IMG/VR virus record: IMGVR_UViG_3300025732_000105
Span: 1 to 38,771 of that record
Length of the DNA: 38,771 bases
Direction: 5' to 3' (one strand)
Origin: a virus
Under the pieces are notes generated by a model. That model did not search any database and was not told the DNA's origin. It saw only the letters and a list, made by a program, of their open reading frames with translations. Positions 5,976 to 7,588 of the stretch are shown here, piece after piece; within the stretch, counting starts at the first letter, position 1, and every line of letters starts with the position of its first letter. Position numbers and translations under genes: made by a program.

Positions 5976-6226
5976 ATTCTTCTCCATGCTTGTTCTGCGT
6001 CCCGTGACGACTTCATTATTTCTAAAAGGAGTTCAACGCGGTTTTGATACGCGACAAAAACGTCCTTGCCTTCGAACCAGTTGTACACAGTCTGGCGTGT
6101 AACTCCGAGCGCATACGCGATCTTTGTCACAGGGAAATCTAAGTAGATTGCCCAACGCCCAAGCTGATTGCCGGGCGTTTTCTTGGCAGCCATGACTGCG
6201 TCAATTACTCTTTGTGAATAAGCCAT
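5948..6226 (-). CDS. Helix-turn-helix DNA-binding protein
   Basis: This is a 92-residue protein with a Cro/CI-type helix-turn-helix in its first half: residues around 30-52 read TKIAYALGVTRQTVYNWFEG, where the turn GVTRQTVYNW is diagnostic. The N-terminal part (GNQLGRWAIYLDFP) looks like helix 1. It likely binds operator DNA as a small phage regulator. The upstream leader (ACCCAAACACT before the ATG) has no clear SD, unusual for this genome, which may mean weak or regulated translation. Together with the winged-helix protein at 17.2-17.8 kb it is a candidate reader of the 18-bp operator sites at 8035, 18085 and 25375, but nothing in the sequence proves this. Confidence 0.85.
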   Translation of the reverse strand: MAYSQRVIDAVMAAKKTPGNQLGRWAIYLDFPVTKIAYALGVTRQTVYNWFEGKDVFVAYQNRVELLLEIMKSSRDAEQAWRRICKEYNLEP

Positions 6227-6298
6227 AGTGTTTGGGTGGGGGTACTAGCCGTTCGTCCGCAAGCCCGTTAGAACTCTGCACGACGTTCCCCCCGATCT

Positions 6299-6517
6299 TT
6301 ACTTTCTGTTTTGTGCCAGCAGCAAGCAGGTGGCACGTTCAATTTCGACTTGGTCAAACAAAGCACAAGCCGTGACCATAGGGTCAGCGCCGTTGGATAC
6401 AGCCTTTTCCCACTTGTCACGTCGATCGTGCATACCAAAAGAGCAAGAGGCAATTCCGACTATGAGCACCATTGCTCCGATGCCCCACATGCGGAGCCAA
6501 AATTTATTTTCTTCCAT
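6299..6517 (-). CDS. Small single-span membrane protein, 72 aa
   Basis: The start at 6517 has an excellent SD (AAGGAGAAAACA before the ATG); the longer in-frame extension upstream would run through the tRNA-like element and is rejected. Residues 8-26 (LRMWGIGAMVLIVGIASCS) form one hydrophobic helix. The rest is a short soluble tail with FDQVEIERATCLLLAQ. No family recognised. The gene follows the tRNA-like structure, which lies in its 5' leader. Confidence 0.7.
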   Translation of the reverse strand: MEENKFWLRMWGIGAMVLIVGIASCSFGMHDRRDKWEKAVSNGADPMVTACALFDQVEIERATCLLLAQNRK

Positions 6518-6534
6518 TGTTTTCTCCTTGAAGG

Positions 6535-6609
6535 TGGGGGTTGGGTGGGGATCGAACCCACCACTCCACAGTGCATGCCGGAATCGAACCGGCCCTTTTA
6601 CCAACCCCC
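6535..6609 (-). tRNA. tRNA-like element, D-armless class II fold (Ser-CGA-like?)
   Basis: Read on the minus strand, the ends GGGGGTTGG (6609-6601) and CCAACCCCC (6544-6536) pair over 9 bp. Inside are a short single strand TAAAAGG (6600-6594), an arm GCCGG-TTCGATT-CCGGC (6593-6577), a short CACT-GTGG-AGTG hairpin (6573-6562), and a canonical T-arm GTGGG-TTCGATC-CCCAC (6561-6545). A normal D-arm is missing. If the first arm is the anticodon arm, the anticodon is CGA and the extra hairpin is a class II variable arm, as in tRNA-Ser. Because both loops are T-loop-like (TTCGAT), the alternative is a rearranged tRNA remnant with two T-arms. It sits between the ssDNA-binding candidate and a small membrane protein gene, so it is probably transcribed within the mRNA. 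Confidence 0.4.
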
Positions 6610-6616
6610 GATTCAA

Positions 6617-7588
6617 TTACTCGTCATCCCAGTCAGACACGATGTCAGCGAGCTTGCCTTTCTTGGCAGGCACAGCAGACGGCTTCGCGGCTTCCTTGCG
6701 GACTTCGGGTTCAGCATCGTCCTCTTCCACCGCGGGCTTGGCTTTCGCTTTAGCGGCCTTGGCAGCGATCGGCTCGTATGCTGGAGCATCTTCTTCCTTG
6801 GTCAGCTCACCCATGGGGCGCTTGCCGGGGATTGCCAATGGAGCAGGGGCGGCCTTCACACCATCAGAAGCGGCAACAGTCATGACAACTGCACGCTTGG
6901 CTTCATCGCTTTCGCCTTGCGCCTTGACGATCTCATACTCTTCTGGAGTCAACCAACGATTGGGCGCGAAGTGCAACTTGGGCGCTTCTGCTTTCGTGTC
7001 GAACTTCATGCGAGTGACGATCATCTCGGGGCTGATGGGAGGGTTCTGCATGGCCAAGTTGCGAGCGAAGGCTTGCAATGGGCGCTTGTCTCCGTCTTCC
7101 TTGCCGAACACCGAAGTGGCTGGCAAAGTCAACTGCAACACTGCACCTTCAATATTGTTCTCAAGCACCACAGCCAAGCGTTGTTGGTAGCGGCAGGCGC
7201 GGCTATTACCCTGACCTGAACCTGCGATGTTCTGAGGGCATGACATGCAAGTTGCCGCTTGCTTGTTCTCGGCGGATGCGTCTGGGCGCTCACCATCGTT
7301 GCTCCAGCAGTCAGGGCCAGTGATGTTGTCACCGTCGTAAGACTTAGCGTAGAAGATACGGCTGACCTTGGGGGCGGCCTTGACGATGATGACATCCAAG
7401 AAGCGCTCGTCGATAGCGGCGATCTCTTTGCCTCCGGACAGCAAGCGGAACACACCACCTTTGATGGAGATGCGCTGTGTGCTACTGCCTACGCCGCCGC
7501 CTGTCAGGGCTTTGGCTGTCTCAGATAACTCATGGTTGCGTGCGAATGAAGGTACGTTTGCAGGGTTGAATAGTGCGATATTAGTCAT
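6617..7588 (-). CDS. Putative ssDNA-binding protein with acidic C-terminal tail
   Basis: This 323-residue protein has a probable OB-like N-terminal half (RISIKGGVFRLLSGGKEI), a central metal-binding cluster (C117 region PDCWSNDGERPD, then ATCMSCPQN and a later ACRYQ), and an Ala/Lys/Glu-rich linker ending in the acidic tail SDWDDE. A flexible linker plus a terminal acidic, aromatic tip is typical of phage and bacterial ssDNA-binding proteins (as in T7 gp2.5 and T4 gp32), where it recruits partners. T4 gp32 also binds zinc. Its position beside recombination and replication genes agrees. Homologs are often annotated hypothetical, so the call is an inference from architecture. Confidence 0.55.
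   Translation of the reverse strand: MTNIALFNPANVPSFARNHELSETAKALTGGGVGSSTQRISIKGGVFRLLSGGKEIAAIDERFLDVIIVKAAPKVSRIFYAKSYDGDNITGPDCWSNDGERPDASAENKQAATCMSCPQNIAGSGQGNSRACRYQQRLAVVLENNIEGAVLQLTLPATSVFGKEDGDKRPLQAFARNLAMQNPPISPEMIVTRMKFDTKAEAPKLHFAPNRWLTPEEYEIVKAQGESDEAKRAVVMTVAASDGVKAAPAPLAIPGKRPMGELTKEEDAPAYEPIAAKAAKAKAKPAVEEDDAEPEVRKEAAKPSAVPAKKGKLADIVSDWDDE

Follow-up and report, generated by a model that had tools for sequence, protein, structure and literature searches.

A 75-nt tRNA-like RNA element without a D-arm lies on the minus strand of the window (the whole 38,771-nucleotide stretch of viral DNA that was analysed), running from 6609 to 6535 in the same orientation as its flanking genes. 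It almost certainly does not function as a tRNA. Its fold is maintained in related phages, and the gap that it occupies holds a variety of other RNA modules in relatives of the upstream gene, many of them built on the same closing stem. From the features of these modules, we tentatively propose that the element is a cis-encoded intercistronic RNase P-type processing module in a polycistronic phage mRNA, carrying a double-T-arm cap, a reading that we consider plausible though somewhat short of probable.

Structure and conservation of the tRNA-like element

From 5' to 3', the element reads GGGGGTTGG TAAAAGG GCCGG-TTCGATT-CCGGC ATG CACT-GTGG-AGTG GTGGG-TTCGATC-CCCAC CCAACCCCC A. The preliminary description had recognized a 9-bp closing stem, a 5/7/5 arm, an extra hairpin and a T-arm, all of which are present on the minus strand. 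The closing stem pairs the 5' strand GGGGGTTGG (6601-6609) with the 3' strand CCAACCCCC (6536-6544), as found in both the MFE fold and the alignment. The missing D-arm noted at the outset is equally real: its place is taken in all copies of the alignment by a 7-nt linker only, TAAAAGG in the window (6594-6600), of which AAA and GG are invariant. The first 5/7/5 arm (6577-6593) is followed by a 4-bp hairpin, CACT-GTGG-AGTG, at the variable-arm position (6562-6573) and by a canonical 5/7/5 T-arm (6545-6561; MFE fold and alignment). TTCGAT does occur in both loops, as TTCGATT in the first arm and TTCGATC in the T-arm. Moreover, the first-arm loop, UUCGAUU, fits the T-loop consensus, closing G-C pair included, and the two 5/7/5 arms are best read as two T-arms. 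The GG of the linker could be a counterpart of G18/G19, the partner of a T-loop.

The MFE structure of the minus strand consists of exactly these arms (-38.7 kcal/mol, z -2.7, 1 of 200 shuffles as good), and the mean pair probability of the element is 0.97 when it is folded inside 130-260 nt of its natural context. A pattern scan for two T-arms with an enclosing stem picked out a single instance in the window, against none in 60 first-order-Markov shuffles. Folding of the plus strand yields the complementary fold at a slightly worse energy, which is no separate feature.

A pattern fixing both loops detected the element in nine IMG/VR contigs, all with an identical 18-nt spacing. Two independent scans, one leaving loop 1 free and the other the whole 5' half, returned the same nine contigs as their only tRNA-like matches; the first loop is therefore invariant in fact and not through search bias. 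Two compensatory double changes occur among the five distinct sequences, U-A to C-G in the closing stem (L001) and C-G to A-U in the small hairpin (L004), compared with none in a slid register. The outermost pair of the first arm was lost in two lineages, and covariation from this small set supports the structure without proving it. Each tRNA-like copy has a C or T before the first G (N-1), and ACC directly 3' of the closing stem (6533-6535 in the window), at the position of the RCC motif in RNase P substrates. Comparison with named phages gave only T-arm-sized matches for the DNA of the element, mostly to ordinary tRNAs, and no match for 1.5 kb of flanking DNA.

With nine contigs and a compensatory change in the closing stem, the paired ends, whose fate in related phages the preliminary description had left to be seen, prove to be kept. 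The same description had offered a remnant with two T-arm copies as one reading; the two T-arms stand, but "remnant" is doubtful because the compensatory changes point to a maintained structure. For its placement of the RNA in an mRNA leader, "intercistronic" is the better term.

An exchangeable slot between two genes

The element is located between the stop codon of the upstream gene (6617-7588, minus strand) and the Shine-Dalgarno sequence of a 72-aa gene. By direct reading, this Shine-Dalgarno sequence, AAGGAG (6524-6529, minus strand), lies 3' of the element, with a normal 6-nt spacing to the start at 6517. The downstream gene (6299-6517, minus strand) encodes a probable membrane protein (MEENKFWLRMWGIGAMVLIVG...), and is followed by a second slot element, of type B, GGGGGGAACGTCG...CTAGTACCCCC then ACC (6235-6293, minus strand), which precedes a gene starting at 6226. 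Considered together with the L281-L394 slot regions, it points to a hypervariable RNA cassette slot, in which a few fixed G5/C5 platforms bear many unrelated apical domains.

The upstream protein, P0001, belongs to PHROG 27714 (unknown function) and is encoded within a replication-gene cluster. It has four invariant cysteines (94, 114, 117 and 132) and an acidic C-terminal tail, features that led us to consider a single-stranded-DNA-binding protein. This candidate was rejected, as P0001 has no Pfam match and no PDB sequence match, its model is of low confidence (mean pLDDT 52.6) and the best fold match, phiC31 integrase-RDF, is non-significant (E 0.057); a parallel with T4 gene 32 mRNA was not used for the same reason.

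The contents of the gap were surveyed in 80 loci encoding close relatives of P0001, obtained by protein search and hence termed the unbiased set. Most of these loci carry other contents than the tRNA-like element, or nothing, in the gap. Many have a plain UUCG-type hairpin, GGGGGCTTCGGCCCCC; others contain GGGGGGAAAGCGGATGCTG...GCAGCGAGTACCCCC modules, whose apical part varies, GGGGGGAACGCTGTGC...GACGAGCAGTTAGTACCCCC modules or larger structures. In five loci (L043, L050, L053, L081 and L083), a plain hairpin lies between the Shine-Dalgarno sequence (AGGAG) and the AUG, where closure of the hairpin gives a spacing of ~7 nt, as in T4 gene 25. In seven others (L026, L027, L028, L054, L034, L084 and L090), the usual modules are replaced by a larger conserved structure, GGTCGCA..CCTCGTTA..TGCGTTTCC, in which a pseudoknot is possible. 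A search with the 5'-flank pattern matched at least 120 contigs and raised the distinct slot sequences to at least 92, a few of which are probably chance matches.

Unrelated RNAs of the gap are closed by the same GGGGG...CCCCC stem as the element. Two loci with the tRNA-like form (L002 and L006) and one with type B (L314) have the stop codon, the flank, CCCCCACC and the downstream gene in common, whereas the core is wholly different. One core is found on different bases: L312 and L364 have it directly on the G5 stem, L282 on a second platform. Another tRNA-like core, distinct from the one described above and with the canonical T-arm GTGAGTTCGAATCTCAC, is nested on the type-B platform in L283, L321 and L341. 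By eye, a sarcin-ricin-like internal loop is possible in the platform GGGGGGAAAGC...GCGAGUACCCCC. The slot modules that were tested against Rfam gave no match. Hence, the closing stem and the following ACC belong to the slot rather than to its individual contents. No description of such an interchangeable cassette slot was found in the literature searched.

Proposed RNase P processing and competing explanations

We call elaborate those modules that have a G-stem closure and exceed a simple hairpin in complexity. In the protein-search set, all 27 of them have RCC (ACC or GCC) immediately 3' of the closing stem, against none of the 15 plain hairpins. These copies share ancestry and are not independent events, and no probability was attached to the count for this reason. 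Of the 27, the script identified 22 distinct ACC and one GCC, and four more ACC were read by eye (L049, L066, L074 and L094, all CCCC(C)ACC, where the script had overrun into the next gene); L068, the only exception then left, has a simple hairpin and was counted among the plain ones. Elsewhere in these loci, RCC follows runs of C in ~4% of cases. ACC is retained while the 5' flanks and the next base vary, and despite altered stems (GGGGCGG in L092, mutated in L338, shortened in L066). A cultured relative, Pseudomonas phage Rollin, blurs the contrast between elaborate and plain modules, as its plain slot hairpin, TC|GGGGGCTGCAAAGCCCCC|, is followed by GCC.

The slot module resembles an RNase P site in the light of known substrate rules and of precedents among non-tRNA substrates and operon mRNAs. 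RNase P accepts hairpins composed of an acceptor stem and a T-arm, its P15 loop pairs through GGU with R73-C74-C75, and its non-tRNA substrates include pre-4.5S RNA, phage C4 RNA and mRNAs (PMC11143913). Addition of a GCC tail turns a pseudoknot aptamer into a substrate (PMC12710915), and processing of E. coli operon mRNAs by RNase P is on record in references of PMC3071783. In the element, a stable stem opens with a G1-C72-type pair, is preceded by a pyrimidine at N-1 (C|GGGGG) and is followed directly, on its 3' side, by an unpaired RCC. The T-stem and closing stem together measure 5+9 = 14 bp, and thus depart from the 12 bp that RNase P measures between T-loop and cut in tRNAs; with 14 bp, the cut preferred by the T-loop anchor may differ from that preferred by RCC. 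Pre-4.5S RNA is also without the 12-bp T-loop distance. In some elaborate modules (L077, L089 and L094), a Shine-Dalgarno sequence located 5' of the stem would be severed from its gene, which counts against RNase P processing.

In the proposed mechanism, the 5' C/U, the G1-C72-type pair in a G-rich stem, the unpaired R-C-C and a T-loop stacked on the stem would together recruit host RNase P, whose predicted cut is immediately 5' of the first G (6610|6609). Cleavage there would leave the downstream transcript with a stem at its start that sequesters the 5' end and resists 5'-end-dependent decay; 5'-terminal stem-loops stabilise mRNA according to references in PMC3997798. If trimmed further at the 3' side, the module could be set free as a small RNA. 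Docking in RNase P through the T-arm cap would be one natural route, the other caps being 4.5S-like. If this proposal is right, these phages cut their own polycistronic mRNA with the tRNA-processing enzyme of their host, through a slot of freely exchanged RNA domains. The slot would then provide a natural collection of non-tRNA RNase P substrates, as well as a clean test of the extent of RNase P action on mRNA.

A bolder version, which we regard as rather unlikely, makes the gap a cassette site for hypervariable small RNAs. Whole domains, tRNA-like ones included, would be swapped on a fixed G5/C5-ACC base cut by host RNase P, each phage releasing a different small RNA or giving the downstream mRNA a different protected 5' end, and the double-T-arm cap would define a new class of tRNA mimics that lack a D-arm.

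Among explanations that assign no role to RNase P, passive intercistronic stability or insulation is unlikely but deserves serious weight. A GC-rich stem would protect mRNA ends or separate the translation of neighbouring genes, and any cap would suffice, in agreement with the many relatives that have only the UUCG-type hairpin in the gap and with the free exchange of cap sequences. A passive stem nevertheless leaves unexplained why RCC follows elaborate and not plain modules, and does not account for the invariant T-loops and the compensatory changes of the tRNA-like cap.

Alternatively, the released module could act in trans as a small RNA or tRNA mimic whose double-T-arm cap would occupy a host or defence protein that binds tRNA, the other caps serving different purposes. 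The caps are indeed diverse and portable (L312/L364 on the G5 stem, L282 on another platform), a second tRNA-like cap with a T-arm exists (L283, L321 and L341), and other phages also have double-T-arm RNAs, one of them within the tRNA array of a cyanophage. Such a role is distinctly improbable for an element that abuts both neighbouring genes and for which the analysis identified neither a dedicated promoter nor a dedicated terminator.

A split ribosome-binding site, or translational coupling, in which the folded module shortens the distance from the Shine-Dalgarno sequence or the stop codon to the AUG, has a precedent in T4 gene 25 (PMC3014915), and a Shine-Dalgarno sequence does lie 5' of the structure in plain-hairpin relatives and in L001 and L004. 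We consider it very unlikely for the element of the window, given that AAGGAG is located 3' of it at normal spacing and that most elaborate modules have no Shine-Dalgarno sequence 5' of the stem.

Finally, the preliminary description had suggested tRNA-Ser(CGA). ARAGORN predicted no tRNA gene in the window or in its nine relatives, and Rfam, RF00005 included, gave no match at gathering thresholds, the best score being that of tRNA-Sec (RF01852; 24.9 bits, against a gathering score of 47). The would-be anticodon loop has U33, yet every copy has U at position 37 instead of the purine of tRNAs. The stem is followed by ACCT, not NCCA, with A in the place of the discriminator G73 of bacterial serine tRNAs. 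Moreover, the acceptor stem and ACC are common to unrelated modules at the same site and were therefore not inherited from a tRNA; as slot properties, they also cease to be the strongest reason for seeing a tRNA acceptor end here. That the element works as a D-armless tRNA-Ser(CGA) is thus extremely improbable: the 5/7/5 arm with U33-CGA, the class II-like extra arm, the T-arm and the weak tRNA-Sec similarity are outweighed by the negative searches, U37, a 9-bp acceptor, the lack of NCCA, a first loop that is a T-loop and an acceptor end that belongs to the slot.

Related designs and known systems

Two T-arms within one acceptor stem were found in more than 120 viral contigs and in 43 stretches of 257 Gb of cellular genomes, many of the latter being direct repeats or duplicated parts of tRNAs; this wider scan fixed both loops and is silent on the variation of loop 1 elsewhere and on kinship to the element. 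One class of double-T-arm RNAs sits in tRNA arrays, and is unannotated in the cultured Synechococcus phage S-CREM1 (L280 2001-2089; OP535465.1 44482-44570). This cyanophage-type array RNA of 88-90 nt, also seen in L102, L104, L112, L116, L129, L147 and others, consists of an acceptor, two 5' hairpins, a T-arm, a short segment and a second T-arm. A keyword search of the S-CREM1 paper gave no mention of a tRNA-like RNA. Most of the array RNAs examined were skipped by ARAGORN, and a few were read as leucine or serine tRNAs. The double-T-arm design is therefore also present in other phages, in one case among the tRNA genes of a cyanophage array, and tends to be overlooked or misread by tRNA finders. 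Another class, found in the phage contigs L107, L118, L142, L158, L204 and L205, has the form CCACTGT..GGCTTGG..GACGGTTCGATTCCGTC..T-arm..ACAGTGG. RNAs of ~125-130 nt with three T-arms in one acceptor stem occur in L018 (241-366), L169 and L173, with similar partial sequences in L111, L139, L140, L154, L203 and L215.

Among known systems, the T4 stable RNAs C and D (rnaC and rnaD) are likewise phage RNAs of unknown function. They lie in the tRNA cluster of T4, measure 139 and 119 nt and show no sequence relation to the element; with at most one T-arm each, they were rejected as homologues. The split ribosome-binding site of T4 gene 25 also places a structured RNA between genes near a start codon, but in the window the Shine-Dalgarno sequence is 3' of the structure (5' in L001 and L004). 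The S-CREM1 RNA shares two TTCGA-type T-arms, with a short segment between them, in one acceptor stem, and differs in having two further 5' arms and a location in a tRNA array, between tRNA-Phe and tRNA-Ile.

The closest parallels come from RNase P substrates. RNase P-processed operon mRNAs and the phage C4 antisense RNA are intercistronic or phage-borne non-tRNA sites (PMC11143913; references in PMC3071783) whose cleavage is established, whereas we infer that of the element. AT1-type model substrates have a T-arm stacked on the closing stem and a 3' RCC (PMC11143913), but the element has 14 rather than 12 bp from T-loop to cut, a natural mRNA context, and an extra T-arm and hairpin. Pre-4.5S RNA (ffs) is the product of a free-standing gene and gives rise to the SRP RNA, unlike the intercistronic slot stem with its tRNA-like cap and no SRP domain by Rfam. 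Yet the two share their ends: E. coli 4.5S RNA terminates in GGGGG...CCCCCACC, a GGGGG...CCCCC stem followed by ACC, with a pyrimidine before the first G.
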